Shown in pieces: positions 4,225 through 28,045 of a DNA stretch of 38,761 bases (the stretch's first letter is position 1; every line of letters begins with the position of its first letter). The stretch comes from Flavobacteriales bacterium. GTDB lineage: Bacteria > Bacteroidota > Bacteroidia > NS11-12g > UBA955. Under the pieces are notes generated by a model, which did no database searches, was not told the origin of the DNA, and worked only from the letters and a program-made list of their open reading frames with translations. The stretch lies in the NCBI GenBank assembly GCA_002737625.1, contig NSIB01000008.1, positions 1 through 38,761 of the forward strand, in the 5' to 3' direction. The translations under genes were made by a program, and so were the position numbers.

Positions 4225-6456
4225 TTATTCTCCAAGTCCTGGAATATTTACTGGGGGTCGGAGTTCGCCGCCCATCGCCCGTTTGCTACAGTCCAATATA
4301 CTTAGGTTAAACCCCTCTGGCATATCCAAGGCATCGGCAGAAATTCCAGTCGATTTATCGTCTAGCGCTGCCTTGATGAAATAAGCGAAAATGGGTAAAC
4401 TCATATTGGCACCCTGCCCAATGAGCGTACCACGAATCCTTACCGTTGGATCATCCGCGCCAACCCAAGTGGCACAAACCAAATTTCTTGTAAGACCCAT
4501 GAACCAACCATCAGCAGATCCTTGTGTAGTTCCAGTCTTTCCCGCGATATGTCCTTCAACGGCGTATTTGCCGCCACGAATCCTGCTCCCAGTACCGCCG
4601 TTTACCACATTCTCTAGCATCCGGAACATCATATAGGCCTTTTCGGCGCTGAGTACTTGGTCGGTTTTGGGCTGATTAAAATCCTCCAAAATATTCCCGT
4701 TTTTATCTTCAATACGCAGTAAGAACGTAGGCTCTACCCATAATCCGTTATTTGCAAATGCGGAATAGGCGCTTGCCATTTCAAAAGGAGACAATTCCAT
4801 CGTGCCCAAGCAAATCGATGGTACTTTGGGAATTCTGTTCGCTTCAATGCCTACGCGTTCTGCAAATTTCACTACGATTTCGGGTGCGTCATCGCCCAAA
4901 CTCTTCATGACTTGCGCGGTGATTAAATTATCAGACAGGGCCAAACCTTTCGTCATGGTCCAAACTCCGCCTGATTTTCCATCCGCATTGCGCGGACTCC
5001 ATTCTTTTCCGCCAGAGAAAAATGTGGTGCGCTCCCTTGGGAATTCTGTGCAAGGGGACATTTGGTTAATGTCTATTGCAGTCGCGTAAACAATGGGCTT
5101 GAACGTAGATCCCACCTGACGGCGAGCACGACGGTTTACGTGGTCATACTTAAAATGTTTGTGATTGATTCCACCCACCCATGCTTTCACATGACCCGAT
5201 TCGGGTTGAACGGCAATAAATCCTGCCATCAATACTTTTTTGATGTAAGCCATACTGTCGTAAGGCGACATCATAGTATCCACATCACCGTGCCAAGAGA
5301 AGACGGTCATTTTGATGGGCTTTTTTAATTCTTGAATAATTTTTGCGGAATCATCGCCCATTTCTTCGGCGAGGCCTTTGTATCGTTCCGTCCGTTTTAA
5401 GGCGCTTTCGATGAATCCAGGAATCACGGCGCGGGTAGTTACGTAGCGCCACGGTTTTTCTTTGCCCCAACTTTTATTGAATTGGGATTGCAGTTCAGGC
5501 ATGTGTTGTTGTACGGCCTTTTCTGCATATTGCTGAAGTTTGGGATTAAGGGTAGTGTAAATTTTTAAACCGCTGCGGTATAGGTCGATGCCTTTTTTCT
5601 TGCACCAAGGCTTGAGATATTCGCCCAAATAGAATTTGAAATACTGGGCCACACCATCCATTTCTGCGCTGCGATAATTTATTTTTATGGGTTTGGCTTT
5701 GAGAAGATCCAAGCTATCATCACTTAAAAAATTGTATTTATTCATTTGTTCCAAAACGGTGTTTCGTCTGGATAATGATTTGTCTGGATTGAATTTTGGA
5801 TTGTAACGATGGTTCGCCTTAAGCATACCAATCAATACGGCAGCTTCTTCAATTTGAAGGTTTTTTGGGCTTTTGTTAAAGAATTCTTTTGATGCGGATT
5901 CAATGCCAAACGAAATTCCCGAAAAGGGAACTGTATTGAGGTACATCGTAATGATTTCATTTTTTGTATATCGGCGTTCTAGTTCTACCGCGATGACCCA
6001 CTCTTTGAATTTCTGCATCACCATGCCAATTTTGGATGACGGTTTTTGAAAGCGATAAAACAGGTTCTCTGACAACTGCTGGGTGAGTGTAGATGCTCCA
6101 CCATCTTGTCCGAGGGCTACCAAAGCGCGAATTGTGCCGCGAATATCGATGCCAGAATGAGAGCGAAAGCGCACATCTTCAGTGGCTTCTAGTGCGTTAA
6201 AAATACAGGGCGCGATGTCTTTGTGTGCGGTATTGATTCGATTCTCCAGATAAAAACTACCCATTAACGTGCCATCGTCGCCCAGAATCTCTGAGCTCAG
6301 CGCATTCTTGGGATTTTCTAAATCCTCTACATCAGGCATTCCCCCAAAAAGACCAAAACTGACCAAAATGAAAAGTAAAAAAACGGCGATGGTTCCACCA
6401 ATGAGGAATTGCCAAAAGCGTTTGATTAACGTGAATTTAAACCCCGGAGCAGCCAT
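4225..6456 (-). CDS. Class A penicillin-binding protein (PBP1A-like transglycosylase/transpeptidase)
   Basis: This 743-residue inner-membrane enzyme polymerises and crosslinks peptidoglycan. After a short cytoplasmic tail there is one membrane helix (about residues 17-38). The GT51 domain has the catalytic Glu93 in ATEDVRFRSHSGID and the GGASTLTQQL motif. The transpeptidase has the acylation Ser450 in GSTFKP, Ser508-Asp509-Asn510 and Lys640-Thr-Gly. All catalytic residues are present. Length is normal for the family. It lies 32 bases after porW on the same strand with no terminator between them, so the two are probably one operon. Confidence 0.93.
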   Translation of the reverse strand: MAAPGFKFTLIKRFWQFLIGGTIAVFLLFILVSFGLFGGMPDVEDLENPKNALSSEILGDDGTLMGSFYLENRINTAHKDIAPCIFNALEATEDVRFRSHSGIDIRGTIRALVALGQDGGASTLTQQLSENLFYRFQKPSSKIGMVMQKFKEWVIAVELERRYTKNEIITMYLNTVPFSGISFGIESASKEFFNKSPKNLQIEEAAVLIGMLKANHRYNPKFNPDKSLSRRNTVLEQMNKYNFLSDDSLDLLKAKPIKINYRSAEMDGVAQYFKFYLGEYLKPWCKKKGIDLYRSGLKIYTTLNPKLQQYAEKAVQQHMPELQSQFNKSWGKEKPWRYVTTRAVIPGFIESALKRTERYKGLAEEMGDDSAKIIQELKKPIKMTVFSWHGDVDTMMSPYDSMAYIKKVLMAGFIAVQPESGHVKAWVGGINHKHFKYDHVNRRARRQVGSTFKPIVYATAIDINQMSPCTEFPRERTTFFSGGKEWSPRNADGKSGGVWTMTKGLALSDNLITAQVMKSLGDDAPEIVVKFAERVGIEANRIPKVPSICLGTMELSPFEMASAYSAFANNGLWVEPTFLLRIEDKNGNILEDFNQPKTDQVLSAEKAYMMFRMLENVVNGGTGSRIRGGKYAVEGHIAGKTGTTQGSADGWFMGLTRNLVCATWVGADDPTVRIRGTLIGQGANMSLPIFAYFIKAALDDKSTGISADALDMPEGFNLSILDCSKRAMGGELRPPVNIPGLGE

Positions 6457-9673: not shown

Positions 9674-10096
9674 ATGTCAATGTTTAATAATAATACCACA
9701 AAAAACGAAAAGGCGGTTCAGTCGCAGGGGATTCTTAATATCATTGGCCAAGGGACAAGGATAACGGGAGACTTGGTTTCAAACGGTGACTTTAGAGTGG
9801 ATGGTGCCATTGAGGGACATGTAAAAGTAGGTCAGCGTTTGGTGATTGGTGGAACGGGCAAGATTCTAGGGAACATCGAAGCGGATTCTGCAACTGTTGC
9901 TGGTCATATTAAGGGCAACATCACAGTAAAGAACATTTTGGAGTTAAAACCTTCCGCCAAAATTGATGGGGATATCGTGACCAATAAAATGGTAATTGAG
10001 TCGGGTGCACAATTCAACGGCCGTTGTACAATGAATGTTGTGGTAAGTGTTCCGGCGGGTGGTGCAGCGGCATCGACTCCTGTGGCATCCAAATAA
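9674..10096 (+). CDS. Bactofilin (polymer-forming cytoskeletal protein)
   Basis: This 140-residue protein has the bactofilin core: a right-handed beta-helix of short repeats (for example GTRITGDLVSNGDFRVDGAIEG, GNIEADSATVAGHIKGNI, AKIDGDIVTNKMVIESGAQFNG), with a polar N-terminal tail and a flexible Pro/Ala/Gly C-terminal tail. Bactofilins polymerise without nucleotide and scaffold cell-wall enzymes, often M23 peptidases. The gene has its own consensus promoter and is followed by AtpZ with an 18-base gap, so it probably leads the ATP synthase operon. The cargo for this bactofilin is unknown. Confidence 0.92.
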   Translation: MSMFNNNTTKNEKAVQSQGILNIIGQGTRITGDLVSNGDFRVDGAIEGHVKVGQRLVIGGTGKILGNIEADSATVAGHIKGNITVKNILELKPSAKIDGDIVTNKMVIESGAQFNGRCTMNVVVSVPAGGAAASTPVASK

Positions 10097-10114
10097 TATT
10101 ACTATTTGTAGTAC

Positions 10115-10294
10115 ATGCAAGATTTTGCGAAGTATACAGGTATCGCATTTCAGATGATTGCAACGATTCTCGTTATTACGTATTTGGGTTATTTATTGGA
10201 TCAGTGGTTGTCGTTGGCATTCCCTGTGGGTATCTTGTTGGGTGTATTTATAGGTGTTGGCAGTAGTTTATACATAATTTTGAAGAAATTTTAG
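10115..10294 (+). CDS. atpZ: AtpZ/AtpI family small membrane protein
   Basis: This 59-residue protein has two membrane helices joined by a LDQWLSLAFPVG loop and a basic end (LKKF). The pattern matches the small AtpZ/AtpI-like proteins encoded at the start of F-type ATPase operons, proposed to help c-ring assembly or Mg/Ca transport. It starts 18 bases after the bactofilin stop and ends two bases before the next gene. Confidence 0.8.
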   Translation: MQDFAKYTGIAFQMIATILVITYLGYLLDQWLSLAFPVGILLGVFIGVGSSLYIILKKF

Positions 10295-10296
10295 GG

Positions 10297-10698
10297 GTGA
10301 AAACATACAGTGTTAGGCTTTGGGTATTAGGGTTTTTGCTGGGTGTTGTCACCGGCATTATAGATTATTTCAATACAAAGGTAGTTGTCTCAGCAGATGC
10401 ATATTGGGGTTTGTTGTTCTTGGTTGCGCTGTTCTGGTCACTGCGATATTATGTGGATCGAAGTCAGGTGGCTAACCCAAATCAGTGGATTCGTCGTGCC
10501 ATGATTTCGAGCATGATGCGGTTGATGGGCGTGCTAACTTTTTTACTGATATCCGTTTTGAGGCAGGGAAAAGCCAATTTGGTTTTTGTAATGGCTTTTG
10601 GTTTATATTTTATTTTGTTTTTGTTGTTTGAAATGTCTGAAAAGCGTATTAACTTGCGCCCCGATTCAAATGATGGGCCACCCAAAGAAAATGCCTGA
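10297..10698 (+). CDS. AtpI-like ATP synthase operon membrane protein
   Basis: This 133-residue protein has four predicted membrane helices (about residues 8-25, 35-54, 66-86 and 93-113), with a charged C-terminal tail. Its size, topology and place between AtpZ and atpB fit the AtpI role in c-ring assembly, but sequence similarity to AtpI is not evident by eye. The start is a GTG two bases after the AtpZ stop. Its stop overlaps the atpB start (ATGCCTGA), indicating coupled translation. Confidence 0.62.
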   Translation: MKTYSVRLWVLGFLLGVVTGIIDYFNTKVVVSADAYWGLLFLVALFWSLRYYVDRSQVANPNQWIRRAMISSMMRLMGVLTFLLISVLRQGKANLVFVMAFGLYFILFLLFEMSEKRINLRPDSNDGPPKENA

Positions 10699-11815
10699 TT
10701 TTATTGCACTTTTTAGCATATCCTCTGTAAGGAAAACACTAGTTTCTTTTGTTTTTTCGGCGTTTTTGATCGTTTCAACTTTTGCAAACCATTCTAGCGG
10801 TGAGGGTGAAATTGCTGCAGGTCATCCGAAAGCGGCCCAGGAAGTTTCTGCTTCTCACGATAAACCAACCAAATACGATCCAGGAAAAATGATTATGGAT
10901 CACGTGACAGATGCACACGACTGGCATTTGTTTGGTGAGGGCCATGATGCGGTTTCTATTTCATTGCCAGTTATTCTTTACGTTAAATCAACAGGATTTG
11001 TTACTTTCAGTTCTTCCAATTTCCAACACGGCCACGCTGCCTATGATGGATTTGAGTTGAATGAAAAAGGAAGCGTTGTTTGGGAAGACAAATTAAATAC
11101 TGAATCGATATATGATCTTTCCATCACCAAGAATGTTTTCGCGATGATGTTGGCCGTGCTTTCATTGATGTTAATCACAATTGGCATGGCAAGGTCGTAT
11201 CGCAAAAGAGAGGGTAAGGCTCCCAAGGGGTTTCACAATTTGATTGAACCTTTAATTTTGTTTATTCGTGACGATGTTGCACGGGCTTCAATTGGACACA
11301 AGGCAGATAAATATTTGCCCATGTTGCTGAGCATATTCTTCTTTATTTTTGTTAATAATCTTTTTGGTTTGATTCCTATTTTTCCTGGGGGTGCGAACGT
11401 AACGGGAAATATTGCGGTGACTATGGTGTTGGCCGTGATTGTGTTTCTTACGGTAAATTTGAATGCAAATAAATATTATTGGAAACACATTTTTGTACCG
11501 GACGTTCCAGTGTGGATGTATGTAATTATTATCCCTATTGAAATAATGGGTTTGGTTTTAAAGCCTTTCGTTTTAATGTTACGTTTGTTTGCTAACATCA
11601 CTGCAGGTCACATTATTATATTGGGCTTCTTTAGTTTGATTTTCATTTTTGGAGCAATGAAGCCAGGATTGGGATTGGCAGTTTCTCCTTTGAGTGTAGC
11701 ATTTACCGTGTTTATGAGTTTGTTGGAATTGCTAGTGGCTTTCTTACAAGCTTATGTATTTACTTTATTAACGGCCATTTATATTGGCAGTGCCATCGAG
11801 GAACATCATCATTAA
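10691..11815 (+). CDS. atpB: ATP synthase Fo subunit a
   Basis: This 374-residue proton-channel subunit has the essential arginine in MLRLFANITAGH and the conserved ELLVAFLQAYVFTLLTAIY helix near the C-terminus. The N-terminus has a signal-peptide-like helix and a periplasmic, His-rich extension (DAHDWHLFGEGHD), as is usual for Bacteroidota subunit a and longer than the E. coli protein. The frame is open upstream to 10598, but ATG at 10691 gives the expected start and overlaps the preceding stop by eight bases. It sits in the operon order atpZ-atpI-like-atpB-atpE-atpF-atpH-atpA-atpG. Confidence 0.95.
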   Translation: MPDFIALFSISSVRKTLVSFVFSAFLIVSTFANHSSGEGEIAAGHPKAAQEVSASHDKPTKYDPGKMIMDHVTDAHDWHLFGEGHDAVSISLPVILYVKSTGFVTFSSSNFQHGHAAYDGFELNEKGSVVWEDKLNTESIYDLSITKNVFAMMLAVLSLMLITIGMARSYRKREGKAPKGFHNLIEPLILFIRDDVARASIGHKADKYLPMLLSIFFFIFVNNLFGLIPIFPGGANVTGNIAVTMVLAVIVFLTVNLNANKYYWKHIFVPDVPVWMYVIIIPIEIMGLVLKPFVLMLRLFANITAGHIIILGFFSLIFIFGAMKPGLGLAVSPLSVAFTVFMSLLELLVAFLQAYVFTLLTAIYIGSAIEEHHH

Positions 11816-11849
11816 AATTAATAAACCTATATAAAAAAATCAAATAATT

Positions 11850-12116
11850 ATGAGTCTAATGAACACTCTCCTTCAAGCAGCTGCGGACACTTCAGCCGCT
11901 GCCTACAGCAAAATGGGTGCCGCTATTGGCGCTGGTTTAGCAGCAATCGGTGCCGGTATAGGTATCGGTAGAATCGGCGGTAGCGCCTTGGAATCCATTG
12001 CTCGCCAACCAGAATCTTTGGGCGACATTCGTGCAAACATGATCGTAGCTGCGGCCCTTGTAGAAGGTGCTGTATTCTTCGCAATCGTTGTTTGTTTGTT
12101 AATCATGTTTTTGTAA
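11850..12116 (+). CDS. atpE: ATP synthase Fo subunit c
   Basis: This 88-residue hairpin proteolipid forms the rotor ring. Helix 1 carries the GxGxGxG packing motif (GAAIGAGLAAIGAGIGIG), the polar loop is ARQPE, and helix 2 has the ion-binding Glu in ALVEGAVFF. There is no Gln in helix 1, so proton rather than sodium coupling is expected. An extended N-terminus (about 18 residues) is common in this phylum. A hairpin follows the stop. Confidence 0.97.
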   Translation: MSLMNTLLQAAADTSAAAYSKMGAAIGAGLAAIGAGIGIGRIGGSALESIARQPESLGDIRANMIVAAALVEGAVFFAIVVCLLIMFL

Positions 12117-12127
12117 AAAATCCAAAT

Positions 12128-12152
12128 GGGGCCAAAAAACTTTGGCCCCTTT
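12128..12152 (+). terminator. Intercistronic hairpin (attenuator or mRNA stabiliser) after atpE
   Basis: Stem GGGGCCAAA, loop AAAC, TTTGGCCCC, followed by TTT. It begins 12 bases after the atpE stop, in the gap before atpF. The T-run is short, so it looks like a partial terminator or a 3' end stabiliser of the atpE mRNA. Because the c subunit is needed in about ten-fold excess over others, such a hairpin may set the ratio. This is inference. Confidence 0.72.
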
Positions 12153-12170
12153 ATTTAAAAACCCAGAAAA

Positions 12171-12659
12171 ATGCAGTTAGTAACACCTGCCATAGGACTT
12201 TTATTTTGGATGCTGGTAACATTTTCATTGTTGCTATTTATCCTTAAGAAATTTGCTTGGAAACCCATTTTAGAATCCATTCGCAACCGCGAACAGACCA
12301 TTGAAGATTCTCTCTCTTTGGCTGAAAAGACAAAGTCAGAAATGATTCGTCTTCAAGGTGAGAATGAGTCTTTATTGGCGGAAGCCCGCAAAGAGCGTAA
12401 TGCTATGTTGAAAGAAGCGCGTGAAATGCGTGATAAAATTGTTGGAGATGCAAAATCTGCTGCCGATGAAGAGGCTAAGAAATTGATGAATCGTGCCCAA
12501 GATGAAATCGAAAAGCAGAAGTCTGCTGCGATTGCAGAAATCAAGCGCGAAGTATCTATTTTGTCTGTTCAGATTGCAGAGAAATTGATGCAACAACAAT
12601 TGGAAAACAACTCTGCCCAGCAAGGCATTATCGAAAACCAATTGTCTCAACTAAACTAA
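12171..12659 (+). CDS. atpF: ATP synthase Fo subunit b
   Basis: This 162-residue peripheral-stalk subunit has one N-terminal membrane helix (about residues 5-27, TPAIGLLFWMLVTFSLLLF), the conserved KKFAWKPILESIRNREQTIEDSL start of the stalk, and then a long, charged coiled coil rich in Ala, Glu, Lys and Arg. Length matches the family. The ATG follows an A-rich leader with little Shine-Dalgarno character, as usual for the phylum. Confidence 0.96.
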   Translation: MQLVTPAIGLLFWMLVTFSLLLFILKKFAWKPILESIRNREQTIEDSLSLAEKTKSEMIRLQGENESLLAEARKERNAMLKEAREMRDKIVGDAKSAADEEAKKLMNRAQDEIEKQKSAAIAEIKREVSILSVQIAEKLMQQQLENNSAQQGIIENQLSQLN

Positions 12660-12669
12660 GCCATACGGT

Positions 12670-13209
12670 ATGTCAGAATTTAGAATTGCATCTCGTTACG
12701 CCACTGCTTTATTTACTAAGGCGATGGAGGAAAAAGCGATTGACGCTGTAGTTGCTGATATTTTGGTGATTCAACAGGCTTGTAAAGAAAGCGATGACTT
12801 AATCGTTTTCTTGAACAGTCCAATGTTGAAAAAAGCGGTCAAGAAGGATGGCTTAGCAAAAATCTTTATTTCTTGTTCTGAACTAACCAAGCAATTGTTG
12901 AATCTGATGGCGGAAAAGAATCGCGAGGCATTTATTCCAGCGATGACGCATGCTTTTGTTGATTTGTATAATGTTCACAAGGGAATTACCATGGCCGTAG
13001 TGACGTCGGCTGTGCAATTAACAGATTCGGCGCTTTCGGCTATAAAAAAATATGTCGCTCAAACTTCGGGCGCAAATGATGTTGTGTTAACACAAAGCAT
13101 AGACCCCACTGTAATTGGTGGAATGAATATCGTATTTGATGGGAAGATTTATGATGCTACCTTATCAAACCAAATTTTAAAATTGAAAAAAGACCTTCAA
13201 ATCGCATAA
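12670..13209 (+). CDS. atpH: ATP synthase F1 subunit delta
   Basis: This 179-residue subunit links the b-stalk to the top of F1 (OSCP homologue). It starts MSEFRIASRYATALFTKAMEE, with the typical RYA-ALF motif, and ends with the conserved IDPTVIGGMNIVFDGKIYDATL segment. It lies ten bases after atpF and ten before atpA. Confidence 0.96.
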   Translation: MSEFRIASRYATALFTKAMEEKAIDAVVADILVIQQACKESDDLIVFLNSPMLKKAVKKDGLAKIFISCSELTKQLLNLMAEKNREAFIPAMTHAFVDLYNVHKGITMAVVTSAVQLTDSALSAIKKYVAQTSGANDVVLTQSIDPTVIGGMNIVFDGKIYDATLSNQILKLKKDLQIA

Positions 13210-13218
13210 AACACTGTT

Positions 13219-14799
13219 ATGTCAAATATTAGACCCGACGAAATTTCCAGCATTTTAAAAGACCAGATCACTGGTTTTAACACTGCTGCGAGTTTAGAAG
13301 AAGTAGGTACCGTACTCCAAGTGGGTGACGGTATAGCCCGTATCTATGGCCTCTTGGGCGTACAATATGGAGAACTTGTAGAATTTGCCAACGGCGTTCG
13401 CGCGGTGGCTCTGAACCTTGAACAGGACAACGTTGGTGCTGTATTGATGGGAAGTAGCGGAGACATCAAAGAGGGCGACAAGGTGAAACGTACAGGTAAA
13501 ATCGCATCAATCAAAGCTGGACACGGTGTTTTAGGTCGTGTAATTAATGCTTTGGGAGAGCCTGTAGACGGTAAGGGTCCGATCACTGGTGAATTGTTTG
13601 AAATGCCTTTGGAGCGTAAAGCCCCAGGTGTTTTATATCGTGAGCCGGTAACTGAGCCTTTGCAAACAGGTATAAAGGCAATCGATGCCATGATCCCTAT
13701 CGGTAGAGGTCAGCGTGAGTTGATTATTGGTGACCGTCAGACTGGTAAAACGGCCATCGCGTTGGATACCATTATCAATCAAAAGGAGTTTTACGAAAAA
13801 GGAAACCCTGTGTATTGTATTTATGTTGCTTGCGGACAGAAAGAATCAACGGTAAAACAAGTAGTGAAATCGTTGGAAGAGAGTGGTGCTATGGCTTATA
13901 CAGTAGTTGTAACTGCTGCGGCTTCTAACCCAGCAGCTTTGCAATTCTTTGCCCCAATGGCGGGATGTGCGATTGGTGAATATTTCCGCGACTTAGGATT
14001 GCCAGCATTGGTGGTCTACGACGATTTGTCTAAACAGGCTGTAGCATATCGTGAAGTTTCTTTGTTGCTTCGTCGTCCGCCAGGACGTGAGGCATATCCT
14101 GGAGACGTATTCTACTTGCACAGTCGTTTGCTAGAGCGCGCTTGTAAGTTGAACTCTTCAGATCATATTACTTGTAACATGAACGATTTGCCTGATAGCT
14201 TGAAAGGTAAAGTAAAAGGGGGTGGTTCATTAACTGCCTTGCCGATTATCGAAACGCAAGCGGGTGATGTATCAGCATATATTCCAACAAACGTAATTTC
14301 TATTACGGATGGTCAGATTTTCTTGGAATCAAATTTATTCAACTCGGGAATTCGTCCAGCCATTAACGTAGGTATTTCGGTATCTCGTGTGGGTGGTAAT
14401 GCGCAAATCAAGTCAATGAAAAAAGTGGCTGGTACGTTGAAATTGGATCAAGCACAGTATCGTGAATTGGAAGCCTTTGCAAAATTCGGTTCTGACTTAG
14501 ATGCGGCAACCAAATCGGTTTTGGAAAAAGGGTCTCGCAACGTGGAAATTTTGAAGCAGCCCCAGTACAGTCCAGTATCTGTAGAGAAGCAGGTGGCTAT
14601 TATCCACTTAGGAACATCAAACTTAATGAGAAGTATTCCTGTAAAGAAGGTTCGTGAATTCGAAGCGGCTTATTTGGAGTATTTGGATGCAAAGCATAAA
14701 GATACTTTGGAATCATTGCGCAAAGGAGTGATAGACGATGCAGTGAAGGCTGTGTTGAATGCCGCTTGTGCTGAAATTTCAAAGAGTTACACTGCGTAA
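13219..14799 (+). CDS. atpA: ATP synthase F1 subunit alpha
   Basis: This 526-residue nucleotide-binding subunit has the N-terminal beta-barrel, the Walker A motif GDRQTGKT (near residue 172), [16 protein letters not shown] for the Walker B region, and the conserved visiting [20 protein letters not shown] segment. C-terminal ISVSRVGG is in place. Length is slightly over the 500-515 typical range. The partner catalytic beta subunit is not in the window; in Bacteroidota atpD and atpC lie elsewhere. Confidence 0.98.
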
Positions 14800-14808
14800 T
14801 TTATTGCC

Positions 14809-15690
14809 ATGGCTAACCAGAAAGAGATTCGGGCGAGGATTTCGTCTACCATCAGTACACAGCAGATCACGAAAGCGATGAAGTTGGTGAGCGCAACCAA
14901 GTTGCGGAAAGCCAGTGAAGTTATCATTCGTATGCGTCCGTATGCCCAAAAATTGCAGGGTATTATGGGCAATTTGCAAGACAGTACCGATGACGCTCAA
15001 TTGGCTGGATACTTTGAAACTCGAGAAGTCAAAAGAGTATTGTTATTGGTGATTACCAGTGATCGTGGTTTGTGTGGTGGTTTCAATGCCAATGTGGTTA
15101 AACGTGTTCGTCAGTTGTTAGACACTGATTATGCAGCTGCACTTCGTGCAGGAAACGTAACATTGATGTGCATGGGTAAAAAGGGTGGAGAAGCCTTGAA
15201 GCGTTTGGGTTATGCTGTGAATATGGATATGGTGAATCTTACTCAAAACGCAGATTCTCAAACTGCTTTTGCCGCAATGCAAAGTGTTATCGATTCATAT
15301 CTTGCAGGACATTATGATCGTGTGGAAGTAATTTATAACAAATTCAAAAACGCAGCGACACAAATTTTGGTTAATGAGCAATTGTTACCCGTTGTTCCCG
15401 CTGCGAATGTTGAGAAATCATCAACTTCAAATGATTATATTTTTGAGCCAGATCAGGTTGCCATTTTACAAGATTTGATTCCTCGCAGTTTGAGTACTTT
15501 GTTCTATCGTTCTTTGTTGGATTCGTTGGCTTCTGAGCATGGTGCTCGTATGGTTGCCATGGATAAGGCTACCGAGAATGCTGGAGATTTGTTACGCGCA
15601 TTTCGATTGGCATACAACCAAGCGCGTCAGGCAGCAATTACCCGTGAAATCTCCGAGATTGTGGGTGGTGTTGCGGCTTTGGAAGGATAA
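14809..15690 (+). CDS. atpG: ATP synthase F1 subunit gamma
   Basis: This 293-residue central-stalk subunit has the conserved N-terminal helix (MANQKEIRARISSTISTQQITKAMKLVSATKLRKA), the SDRGLCGGFN motif, and the C-terminal SEHGARMVAMDKATENAGDLL helix that turns within the alpha3beta3 head. It is the last gene of the operon and is followed by a clear terminator. Confidence 0.97.
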   Translation: MANQKEIRARISSTISTQQITKAMKLVSATKLRKASEVIIRMRPYAQKLQGIMGNLQDSTDDAQLAGYFETREVKRVLLLVITSDRGLCGGFNANVVKRVRQLLDTDYAAALRAGNVTLMCMGKKGGEALKRLGYAVNMDMVNLTQNADSQTAFAAMQSVIDSYLAGHYDRVEVIYNKFKNAATQILVNEQLLPVVPAANVEKSSTSNDYIFEPDQVAILQDLIPRSLSTLFYRSLLDSLASEHGARMVAMDKATENAGDLLRAFRLAYNQARQAAITREISEIVGGVAALEG

Positions 15691-24746: not shown

Positions 24747-25331
24747 TTACTCTTCCTCAGGAACTGGCATTTCCGAAGCATTGGAAGTTGAGTCACTAGA
24801 AGGGGATAATTCAGTATCAACAACGATTAAATCCACAGTCGTACCTTTTAATACTTTTTGACCTGCTTCTATTGACCGCCCTCCCACTTTTTGTCCGATG
24901 ACCAAATTGTTGGCATATTCAGCATATTCAAAGGTGATTTTTCCCAAAATTAATCCCGCATTTTTTAGAAGTGCTTTGGCCAGATTGAAACTGCAATCGG
25001 TAAGTTTGGGCATTGAAATTCTGGGTCTACTCGTCGCGTTCACGGTTACATATAACATCCTTCCGGATTTTACATCTTCGTTTGCCAATGGCAATTGTTC
25101 CACAATTACACCGGGCTTCATTTTGTCTAAGTAGACGGTGTCGATGATTTTCATCCGCAGCCCCATTTCACTCAGTTTCGCTTCGGCTTCAAAGGGTTTA
25201 GATCCAATGACAGCGGGCACAATGATTTTATCCCCGTGTCTCGTATAAGCATCAAGTCCAAAGTAACTTAGTGTTAGAATTATGGCAATGAAAAGTCCAC
25301 CCAGTCCGATATTATACATCCAGTTTTTCAC
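24747..25331 (-). CDS. PASTA-domain membrane protein
   Basis: This 194-residue protein has one N-terminal membrane helix (about residues 7-28) and two extracytoplasmic PASTA domains (about 38-100 and 105-176), ending in a Ser/Glu-rich tail. PASTA domains bind muropeptides or beta-lactams. There is no kinase or transpeptidase domain. Its GTG start overlaps the stop of the ligase fusion (GTGA), and the tight coupling to D-Ala ligase supports a cell-wall role. A PASTA protein next to ddl is a common arrangement in this phylum. Confidence 0.85.
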   Translation of the reverse strand: MKNWMYNIGLGGLFIAIILTLSYFGLDAYTRHGDKIIVPAVIGSKPFEAEAKLSEMGLRMKIIDTVYLDKMKPGVIVEQLPLANEDVKSGRMLYVTVNATSRPRISMPKLTDCSFNLAKALLKNAGLILGKITFEYAEYANNLVIGQKVGGRSIEAGQKVLKGTTVDLIVVDTELSPSSDSTSNASEMPVPEEE

Positions 25332-28045
25332 GCCATTCTATTTTCTCCAAATTTCAATATTTCTCTGATGAATTCAAAAGGTTTGTATCCTTTGATTGCA
25401 GCTTGGTGATAAATACACGTTGCTGGGGTCATGCCGGGCAATGAGTTTACTTCGATGATTATGGTTTCTACCTTGCCGTTTTCAAAAATTCTTACGAAGG
25501 CATCAATTCTGCAATACCCCGTTACATTGAGTGCGATGGCCACTTTTTTTAGCGTATTCCTTACTTCGGTACTGATTCTTGACTGTTCTTTTGGGTTATT
25601 TGAGAATCTGGATGGTGTTATGTTCTGTCCTTGTCCAGCTAAGAATTTCTCTTCAAGGCTAAGAATTTCACTTTCGGCGAGAGATTCAGAGGGTTCAAAT
25701 ATTTCATACAAAAGCTGTCCGTTAATATCATAGGAGGTGAGCATGCCTCCGGTAACTTCAAGGAATTTTGTTGCTCCAGCGCGATCAATAAATTGTTCAA
25801 CTAAGAGGTCGGATTTTTGCGGTATCTCGTCGTTAGATTTCACGTTAAGCGCCGCGCAAAGCGCGGCGCTTAACGTGAAATCCTCTCGAAAAATCGCCTC
25901 CATGAACAAATGCAATTCCTCGGTAGATTTTATTTTCCTCACCGCAGCACTGCATCCGTCGTCCGCAGGTTTGGCAATTAATGGAAGACCATATTTTAAC
26001 GAAATCGCAGTGCATAAATCAAAACCTCTCAATTGCCATTCTGACCTATTCACCAATTGATGTTCCGCCACCAAAAATCCCAAGTCTCTCAGTTTTTTAT
26101 TCGTCTCGAACTTGTTAATTGTTACAGAAGATGCCTCACTTTCACTTCCATTGAAATATAGCCCCAATCGCGATAAATCCGCCTGAATTGTTCCATCTTC
26201 CCCTGGTCTGCCATGAAGCGCAATAAATACCCCCTCACATAAATTTGGCAATTCTGCAATCGGCACTTCTGTAGGTTTGAATGTGGGTAAAGTCCGTAGT
26301 ACGGATTTTGTCAATGCACGACTTGCCTCTTGGATCTCCATTAGAACGGGGTTCGCCGAATAATGTAAAATCTTGTCCCGAATGTCATCGGCATTGTCCT
26401 TCAACATCATATTAATGGGCAAATGAAACAACCTATATGATTGATTGTCCCCAGTTAAAAACAAAGGAATCGGCTCGAATTCTTCGCTGCTACTGAGTTT
26501 TTCGTAGATGTTCCGTCCGCTTTCCATAGAAATATGACGTTCGAAACTGTATCCGCCCATCACCACGGCAATTTTCTTTTTTATCGCCGAAGATCCATGG
26601 CTGTTGTCTAACAATTGCTGACTGCGCTGCAATAGACTTTCGAATTTCTGACCTTTGGGGTGACTTTGAATTCTAGCACGCAGTGAATTGAAATAAATCA
26701 ATGTCAAAAAAGCGCTTGGACTCAATCCAATCTCCGCCGCTTGGTGGAAAAAGAACGAGGACGGCATCATTCCACTCGTAGTATTGGGGTCGTTTAAGAA
26801 AATTTCCCCATTCTCATCGATGAAGCCATCAATTCTCGCATACACTTCAAACCCGAAATGGCCATATAACTGGCAACAAGCAAGCCGGATGTCCTCAATG
26901 AGTTCTGCGGTGACCTCAATTGGGGTTACTTTGTTACTTAATCCTGGTAAATATTTACTGCGATAATCAAATAGCTCACTATTTTTTCTAATTTCCGTTG
27001 GCGGTAAAGCAAAGGGAATGCCTGCCTCATCAGCTACTACGATGCAACTAAATTCTTTGCCTTCAATCAATGATTCGATGAGCACAATTGATTCACTATC
27101 GATCGATTGTAATTCGATGCGCTCCTTTGTTTGAAGCTGATTTTCGATGTACTCCATCAAAGCGTCTGGCAAATGGAAAGTTTGGCCATCGGCGATAAGC
27201 GGTAATCCCAATCCGCTGCGCAGGTCGGTGAGTTGTTTGATGTAAATAATTTGGGCATCGGAATCCATATTGTGCCATTCCTTTTGATGCAACGACAAAT
27301 GGAAAAAAGCTAGGTTAATGGCATTGCAAAAAGCATCGAAATCGGCATGTTTTAATAGGCTGACACCCAAAGAGGAGCCTTGGTGTGCGGGCTTAATGAC
27401 GAACTTCTCTCCAAATTCGATGTTGAATTGCACGAACAAGGATTTTCTTTCATTTTCCGTTGCGGCAAACCAGGATTGTTTATCAATTGTGTTGAATTCA
27501 TTTACGAAAAGACCTGCTGTGGTTTGGAAGTCTTTTTGAACTGCTTTATTTATTCCAAGCGCCGACGGTAAAATGCCAGAACCCGAGTAAGGGATTCCAT
27601 ACCATTCCAATAGCCCTTGAATACTTCCGTCTTCACCATGGGTGCCATGCAATGCAAGGAAAGCGAAATCAAAGTAGGTTGAAAATTCATGCGCTTCAAT
27701 CGGATTCCCAATTTCTTTTAAGAGGTTGAGTTGCTCGATTCTGTTATTCTCCAAATTTGCCAAACTTTCTGCATACACTTGGAAGCTGTGCGGTAATTCT
27801 GGTAAGCAATTGATTCTCTGCGTTTCTCGATGTAAAAAAGTGGGTGGATAAAAATCACGGATACTCCCTTTATACACATGTTCCCAATTCAGAAGACAAA
27901 AGTTTCCAAACGAGTCAACAAAAATAGGAATGGCTTCAAATAGCTCTTTATTGAGGCTGTCGTAGACAGTTCTGCCACCTGCAAACGAAACTTCTCGCTC
28001 TCGCGATTGTCCGCCAAAAAAGATACCGACCTTGATTTTCTGCAT
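25328..28045 (-). CDS. Tandem D-alanine-D-alanine ligase fusion (two ATP-grasp halves)
   Basis: This 905-residue protein holds two Ddl-like units, about residues 1-470 and 489-905, where a single ligase is 300-360. Half 1 keeps Glu16, HGTHGEDG, Ser224 (E. coli Ser150), Lys364-Tyr365 (Lys215-Tyr216) and Arg404, but has Asp419 for the metal-binding Glu270 and TTSGMM for the usual SPGMT. Half 2 has Glu502, HGRPGEDG, Arg846 and canonical EVNSLPGMT (Glu865, Asn867), but Cys698 for Ser150, Phe801 for Tyr216 and Thr876 for Ser281. So each half preserves a different part of the active site. An in-frame palindrome encodes residues 722-737 in a loop before LLVEQFID. It overlaps the PASTA gene by four bases. 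Likely role: D-Ala-D-Ala (or D-Ala-D-X) synthesis for peptidoglycan. Confidence 0.88.
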   Translation of the reverse strand: MQKIKVGIFFGGQSREREVSFAGGRTVYDSLNKELFEAIPIFVDSFGNFCLLNWEHVYKGSIRDFYPPTFLHRETQRINCLPELPHSFQVYAESLANLENNRIEQLNLLKEIGNPIEAHEFSTYFDFAFLALHGTHGEDGSIQGLLEWYGIPYSGSGILPSALGINKAVQKDFQTTAGLFVNEFNTIDKQSWFAATENERKSLFVQFNIEFGEKFVIKPAHQGSSLGVSLLKHADFDAFCNAINLAFFHLSLHQKEWHNMDSDAQIIYIKQLTDLRSGLGLPLIADGQTFHLPDALMEYIENQLQTKERIELQSIDSESIVLIESLIEGKEFSCIVVADEAGIPFALPPTEIRKNSELFDYRSKYLPGLSNKVTPIEVTAELIEDIRLACCQLYGHFGFEVYARIDGFIDENGEIFLNDPNTTSGMMPSSFFFHQAAEIGLSPSAFLTLIYFNSLRARIQSHPKGQKFESLLQRSQQLLDNSHGSSAIKKKIAVVMGGYSFERHISMESGRNIYEKLSSSEEFEPIPLFLTGDNQSYRLFHLPINMMLKDNADDIRDKILHYSANPVLMEIQEASRALTKSVLRTLPTFKPTEVPIAELPNLCEGVFIALHGRPGEDGTIQADLSRLGLYFNGSESEASSVTINKFETNKKLRDLGFLVAEHQLVNRSEWQLRGFDLCTAISLKYGLPLIAKPADDGCSAAVRKIKSTEELHLFMEAIFREDFTLSAALCAALNVKSNDEIPQKSDLLVEQFIDRAGATKFLEVTGGMLTSYDINGQLLYEIFEPSESLAESEILSLEEKFLAGQGQNITPSRFSNNPKEQSRISTEVRNTLKKVAIALNVTGYCRIDAFVRIFENGKVETIIIEVNSLPGMTPATCIYHQAAIKGYKPFEFIREILKFGENRMA
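25836..25882. repeat. Perfect 47-base palindrome inside the ligase fusion gene
   Basis: Two perfectly complementary 22-base arms (25836-25857 and 25861-25882) flank the loop AAA. The inner core is GC-rich (GCGCCGCGC / GCGCGGCGC), the outer part AT-rich. It lies entirely in coding sequence and is translated as residues 722-737 (DFTLSAALCAALNVKS). The gene stays in frame. No clear target duplication flanks it. It is not a terminator, since there is no T-run and it sits mid-gene. It could be an inserted palindromic element or the product of template-switch correction. Confidence 0.95.

Follow-up and report, generated by a model that had tools for sequence, protein, structure and literature searches.

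Tandem D-alanine–D-alanine ligases of Bacteroidia: two fused units and a candidate cis-acting second half

D-cycloserine targets D-alanine–D-alanine ligase (Ddl), which is an essential enzyme. Ddl enzymes are dimers, and an internally duplicated, fused ATP-grasp unit with specialised halves, both of them catalytic, is present in the CarB large subunit. A Ddl gene encoding two complete Ddl units in one 905-residue chain was analysed here. The gene lies on contig NSIB01000008.1 of a Flavobacteriales bacterium (assembly GCA_002737625.1), and the whole stretch of 38,761 nucleotides is referred to as the window. The rule by which Phe or Tyr at the position of Tyr216 of Escherichia coli DdlB separates ligase types has been documented for lactobacilli (PMC5996685), as had been noted in an earlier sequence-only reading of the window. 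Ddl trees and vancomycin, not fusions, are treated in PMC4814524. The tandem form was undescribed in the open-access literature searched, and an earlier description elsewhere is possible. Among the NCBIfam matches shown, models for single Ddl, Van ligases and the MurC–Ddl fusion were present and no tandem-Ddl model was found. The sequence-only reading had asked whether the architecture is already catalogued. It proved to be old and very common in Bacteroidia, where it carries only a generic Ddl annotation in the cases that could be checked, and this form of an essential enzyme is uncharacterised.

Two ligase units and their fixed residues

The gene was defined by its open reading frame and translation, Pfam matches and an AF2 model. 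Its halves, named H1 and H2, were delimited by residue alignment, with the AF2 model and Foldseek also used for H2, and the two omega-loop codon pairs were located by translation and alignment (for H2, in both the MAFFT and HMMER alignments).

25328–28045, minus strand: tandem D-alanine–D-alanine ligase gene, 905 residues (ATG at 28045, stop at 25328–25330)
26588–28045, minus strand: H1, residues 1–486, Tyr-type Ddl unit
25331–26587, minus strand: H2, residues 487–905, Phe-type Ddl unit
26948–26953, minus strand: codons of K364-Y365, the omega-loop Lys-Tyr of H1
25640–25645, minus strand: codons of K800-F801, the omega-loop Lys-Phe of H2

The plus strand of 25328–28045 contained many stops and was non-coding. 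The presence of two complete Ddl units, one Tyr-type and one Phe-type, had been proposed from the sequence and was borne out by Pfam, MAFFT and HMMER. Dala_Dala_lig_N (PF01820) was matched in two stretches and Dala_Dala_lig_C (PF07478) in three stretches over the two units, and the pair of domains required of a Ddl was present twice. The whole protein scored 328 bits against the TIGR01205 cut-off of 246, a sum over split matches of which no single stretch reached the cut-off in genome searches. The AF2 model of the full chain (57 orthologues) had a predicted local distance difference test score (pLDDT) of 85.6 and a predicted template modelling score (pTM) of 0.84, and that of H2 alone had values of 84.5 and 0.85, respectively. 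In Foldseek searches against the PDB, the listed top 50 matches were all Ddl enzymes for both models. The structure of the DdlB Y216F mutant, which is the 1IOW entry of the list, was matched at a TM-score of 0.90 by the full model and of 0.86 by H2 alone. A sequencing or assembly artefact was ruled out by 85 distinct tandems from many assemblies, including those of isolates.

The residues were mapped by a MAFFT L-INS-i alignment with DdlB and 30 canonical Ddl of Bacteroidota. The positions given in the sequence-only reading held: Y365 of H1 and F801 of H2 fell on DdlB Tyr216, D419 on Glu270 and C698 on Ser150, and the placement of K800-F801 on K215-Y216 was recovered independently by HMMER. 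H1 kept the canonical residues E16, H133, K167, K218, S224, S225, E324, E331, K364, Y365, R404, D406, N421 and S430. Its only departures in the catalytic core were D419 for Glu270 and S424 for Pro275. H2 kept E502, H611, K645, K692, E750, K800, R846, D848, E865 and N867, with E763 at Glu187 being a less certain placement that hangs on an alignment gap. The altered positions of H2 were H504 for Glu17, C698 for Ser150, A701 for Gly153 and T876 for Ser281. In its omega loop, L795-S796-L797 replaced Tyr210-Asp211-Tyr212, and F801 replaced Tyr216. The D-alanine (D-Ala) triad E15-S150-Y216 was whole in H1 (E16, S224 and Y365), whereas in H2 only E502 remained, with C698 and F801 in place of Ser150 and Tyr216. 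The metal ligands D257, E270 and N272 corresponded to D848, E865 and N867 in H2, and to D406, D419 (a conservative change) and N421 in H1. The Phe- or His-like residue that marks D-Ala–D-lactate (D-Ala-D-Lac) or D-Ala–D-serine (D-Ala-D-Ser) ligases was thus present in H2 as F801, and H1 had Tyr.

Y365, F801, D419 and C698 were near-invariant (at least 97%) across the 85 distinct tandems, and chance was therefore excluded for these four residues. A second set, of 51 H1 and 48 H2 sequences, included tandems from deep branches, with identities as low as about 42%. In this set, and in DdlB numbering, D270 and Y216 were each found in 51/51 H1 sequences, and C150, L210, F216, T281 and every ATP/Mg residue were each found in 48/48 H2 sequences. 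H1 retained the D-Ala-site residues E15, S150, Y216, R255 and S281 plus the ATP/Mg set, apart from Asp270. In the canonical Ddl of the alignment set, S150, Y216, E270 and P275 were all at 100%. The mean column identity was higher for H2 (67%) than for H1 (56%). Hence, a recent pseudogene or decaying copy was ruled out for H2, because its conservation exceeded that of H1 and its ATP/Mg residues were invariant. The sequence-only reading had also described complementary losses in the two halves. The substitutions themselves are real, but the wording was too strong: Asp270 of H1 is conservative, fixed and compatible with function where no intact H2 is present, and H2 keeps all of its ATP/Mg residues.

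Distribution, origin and genomic setting

The distribution of the tandem was explored in 396 evenly drawn Bacteroidia genomes. The tandem type was found in 168 of them and in 84 of 199 genera, a count that includes four genomes with H1 and an H2 remnant. When the draw spanned the whole phylum and favoured other groups, 8/392 genomes had a tandem, all from the class of the window. Named isolates with the tandem include Hymenobacter, Pontibacter, Rufibacter, Adhaeribacter and Rhodocytophaga. Canonical Ddl, called in the same 396 genomes by TIGR01205 at E ≤ 1e-50, was present in 219. The overlap with the tandem-type genomes was 0, and the union was 387. The same pattern was obtained for 58 relatives, of which 39 had the tandem, 17 had a canonical Ddl above the cut-off and none had both. 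The window's own genome is 73.6% complete, and the sole-Ddl status rests on its relatives, two of them of the same genus and 100% complete (G008 and G013). The tandem fusion stands in for the single Ddl in about 40% of the Bacteroidia sampled and is neither rare nor recent. No genome had both types, which makes it most likely that the tandem serves these lineages as housekeeping D-Ala–D-Ala ligase and as sole supplier for MurF, as judged by genomic complementarity.

Candidates for a hidden second Ddl in tandem genomes were rejected. The extra frames (G020:C12, G018:C1, G015:C37 and G247:C1; 319–334 residues, 36–55 bits to the canonical profile) were distant ATP-grasp proteins that matched mainly the C-terminal domain and were without HGxxGEDG. 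The remaining PF07478 or TIGR01205 matches corresponded in frame size and position to AccC/PycA- and CarB-like ATP-grasp enzymes. The frames of 319–334 residues, at loci L161, L162, L163 and L164, represent a distant ATP-grasp protein that stands alone, is related to the Ddl C-terminal domain and occurs in several tandem genomes.

Both states occurred within each of five families (f1, f2, f7, f95 and f106). The exclusivity is therefore not one deep split, and replacements were repeated. In some genera of the window's family and order, DdlA-like single canonical genes that have no PASTA link take the place of the tandem (L153–L157 and L159), and such loci suggest that an essential enzyme was replaced repeatedly. 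In the tree, each half had one origin: all H1 formed one clade (support of 99 in the Shimodaira–Hasegawa-like approximate likelihood ratio test, SH-aLRT), all H2 formed another (100), and the two grouped together (94). The pattern suggests one old duplication followed by fusion, in which the grouping of H1 with H2 is not a strongly supported step.

The gene downstream of the tandem encodes a predicted membrane protein:

24747–25331, minus strand: N-terminal membrane anchor and PASTA domains (Pfam PASTA, 56 bits); 4-nucleotide overlap with the stop of the tandem

Among the 75 relatives whose flank was long enough, about 60 had a PASTA gene directly 3' of the tandem (55 under the strict rule and 5 with a larger stop-to-stop frame overlap). 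L172, a tandem locus with PASTA downstream, was used for comparison. In sister genera (f2 g16; L158 and L160), a single canonical Ddl adjoins the same PASTA gene, and hence the tandem occupies a ddl–PASTA locus. The remaining canonical Ddl of that order were of a different type, and no PASTA match adjoined them. In genome G235 (L166, 5742–9341), a single frame of 1200 residues runs through the tandem Ddl, a membrane-spanning segment and PASTA repeats. The ligase of such a chain would be anchored at the membrane, beneath a periplasmic PASTA domain. Elsewhere in the window, a class A penicillin-binding protein with transglycosylase and transpeptidase domains is encoded at 4225–6456, and this further cell-wall gene lies some 19 kb away from that of the ligase. 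Positions 9674–15690 comprise a bactofilin gene and, after it, an operon for F-type ATP synthase (A, C, B, delta, alpha and gamma).

The role of the second half

Lineages without an intact H2 were informative for the division of labour between the halves. A complete H1 with a short tail was found in family f12 (G306, G247 and G412; L150–L152) and in Bernardetia sp. Wsw4-3y2 (WP_338815673.1), where the gene lies on a megaplasmid (L257, 5998–7869) and is annotated only as D-alanine--D-alanine ligase. The tails matched the H2 profile (E value of 3.2e-13 for Bernardetia and 4.6e-9 for L151; pooled hhalign probability of 96.7) and gave no match to the H1 or canonical Ddl profiles. About 60–100 residues of the N-terminal region of H2 were thus kept in these lineages without the H2 ATP-grasp domain. 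The lineages were nested among tandem H1 in one tree and basal in another, and the homology of the tails to H2 favours loss of H2. A search of the three f12 genomes, with the Bernardetia chromosome outside its range, revealed no other H2 and no canonical Ddl. Because no other Ddl was present there, H1 would suffice without an intact H2, and Asp270 appears compatible with activity. All four H2-less H1 had Asp270 together with Pro275, as in canonical Ddl for the latter, whereas Ser275 was found in 48/48 intact tandems. If this correlation holds in more independent losses, it suggests that the metal loop of H1 is coupled or tuned to the presence of H2.

H2 was detected in 116/247 genomes, each time either sharing a frame with H1 or truncated where a contig ends. 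It was absent from the listed genomes with canonical Ddl, and no complete free-standing H2 was found in the 247 genomes. The 435-residue frames in G636 start 42 nucleotides from a contig start. In a long frame of 1389 residues in G424, the upstream part is a spurious open frame, with the Met at 483. Because no complete H2 was found free-standing and H2 is absent where a canonical Ddl is found, the reading somewhat favoured here is that H1 is the working D-Ala–D-Ala ligase and H2 a cis-acting partner half with retained nucleotide binding. H1 would join two D-Ala using ATP and two Mg ions, with Asp419 in place of the bridging Glu270, as its residues and the phyletic pattern suggest. H2 is predicted to fold as a full Ddl that keeps the equivalents of Glu15, Lys97, Lys144, Glu180, Asp257, Glu270, Asn272 and Arg255. 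With its rebuilt D-Ala pocket and omega loop, H2 probably binds a nucleotide and a small D-amino-acid ligand. Within the shared chain it would act on H1, both as the partner subunit of an intramolecular pseudo-dimer and as its regulator, be it allosteric or dependent on nucleotide. A more specific proposal is put forward tentatively: H2 would be an ATP-grasp half dedicated to regulation in cis, sensing nucleotide together with D-Ala or D-Ala–D-Ala and gating H1, possibly coupled to the PASTA membrane protein, or else a ligase with a new acceptor specificity. If gating were true, a large part of Bacteroidia would control the committed D-Ala–D-Ala step by a mechanism not known elsewhere.

Several points weigh against the favoured reading. 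R255, E15 and all Mg ligands are kept in H2, which is more than a purely regulatory site would need and argues for a catalytic H2. The arrangement of the halves comes from a model, and the pseudo-dimer is putative. Moreover, the H2-less lineages may represent a single event, so the points on H1 alone and on Pro275 rest on few independent cases.

The main rival, a real though smaller possibility, is that H2 is a second active ligase that makes another product (D-Ala-D-Lac, D-Ala-D-Ser or another D-Ala-X) while H1 makes D-Ala–D-Ala. CarB, with two specialised ATP-grasp halves per chain, is a precedent for such a division. H2 shows no variation at Glu15 or at any of its ATP/Mg and oxyanion residues, and its pocket changes are fixed rather than drifting. 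In lactobacilli, a Phe at the position of Tyr216 is the mark of depsipeptide Ddl (PMC5996685). However, a valuable product would be expected to preserve H2 somewhere after replacement of H1, and in the genomes searched H2 was never found complete and free, or beside a canonical Ddl. In addition, C150, L210-S211-L212 and T281 matched none of the 31 aligned canonical Ddl, nor VanA. The sequence-only reading had left open whether the fusion makes a second product or contains one regulatory half, and it is the regulatory half that best fits the phyletic pattern. A link of Phe801 on its own to D-Ala–D-lactate synthesis or glycopeptide resistance was not supported. H2 carries S150C, G153A, Y210L, D211S, Y212L and S281T beside the Phe, and the protein scored below the cut-offs of the NCBIfam equivalogs for D-Ala-D-Lac and D-Ala-D-Ser ligases (NF000206, 165 against 550 bits; NF000207, 167 against 520 bits). 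No VanH- or VanX-like genes were found within the window. VanX-like M15 peptidases were absent in 5 of 10 tested tandem or H1-plus-remnant genomes, including all three of the window's genus.

It is unlikely that H2 is only a structural scaffold, namely a catalytically dead copy replacing the second subunit of the Ddl homodimer. Ddl enzymes being dimeric, fusion of a duplicate would make a pseudo-dimer obligatory, and the N-terminal remnant of H2 is kept in the H2-less lineages as if it packs on H1. Conservation at 100% of the ATP, Mg and oxyanion residues throughout the class is nevertheless more than a scaffold requires. The reverse assignment, which would make H2 the working enzyme and leave H1, bearing Asp419 instead of Glu270, as a degenerate or regulatory half, is very improbable. 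The canonical metal Glu and Pro275 are indeed present in H2 and missing in H1, but the H2-less lineages keep an Asp-type H1 as their only detected Ddl, and the set of Ser150, Tyr216 and Glu15 is retained whole by H1, not by H2.

Comparison with known ligases

Should a large share of Bacteroidia depend on a fused two-unit Ddl in which the second unit is the more constrained one, single-unit models of Ddl kinetics, inhibition and regulation would not apply to them. Profile searches at the family cut-off would then miss the Ddl of tandem genomes at the genome level, and vancomycin predictors based on a single Phe/Tyr residue would misread the tandem proteins. The halves can be expressed apart, which makes the role of the duplicated ATP-grasp half directly testable in cultured Hymenobacter or Pontibacter.

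Canonical Ddl (TIGR01205; E. coli DdlB, 1IOW and 2DLN; Salmonella DdlA, 3I12) shares its fold and nearly all ATP/Mg residues with both halves, its D-Ala-site triad with H1, and its PASTA adjacency, in the single gene of the sister genera, with the tandem. The tandem differs in having two units per chain, Asp270 and Ser275 in H1, a remodelled H2 pocket and insertions of 60–70 residues per half. The Phe-type depsipeptide Ddl of Leuconostoc and Lactobacillus (1EHI; PMC5996685) has Phe at the Tyr216 position in common with H2. H2 differs in that Ser150 and the omega-loop Tyr-Asp-Tyr are also altered and in that it is phyletically tied to H1, and 1EHI ranked 25th in the H2 fold search. VanA, VanC and VanG have the ATP-grasp core in common with the tandem, which lies far under all Van cut-offs, lacks vanH and vanX neighbours in the window and has an H2 omega loop unlike that of VanA. 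The MurC–Ddl fusion (NF011171) is likewise a natural Ddl fusion, but the tandem has no Mur ligase domain and scored 148 bits against a cut-off of 1015. CarB offers a works-like analogy, in that an ATP-grasp unit was duplicated and fused and its halves then specialised, although it belongs to another family with other chemistry and both of its halves are catalytic.

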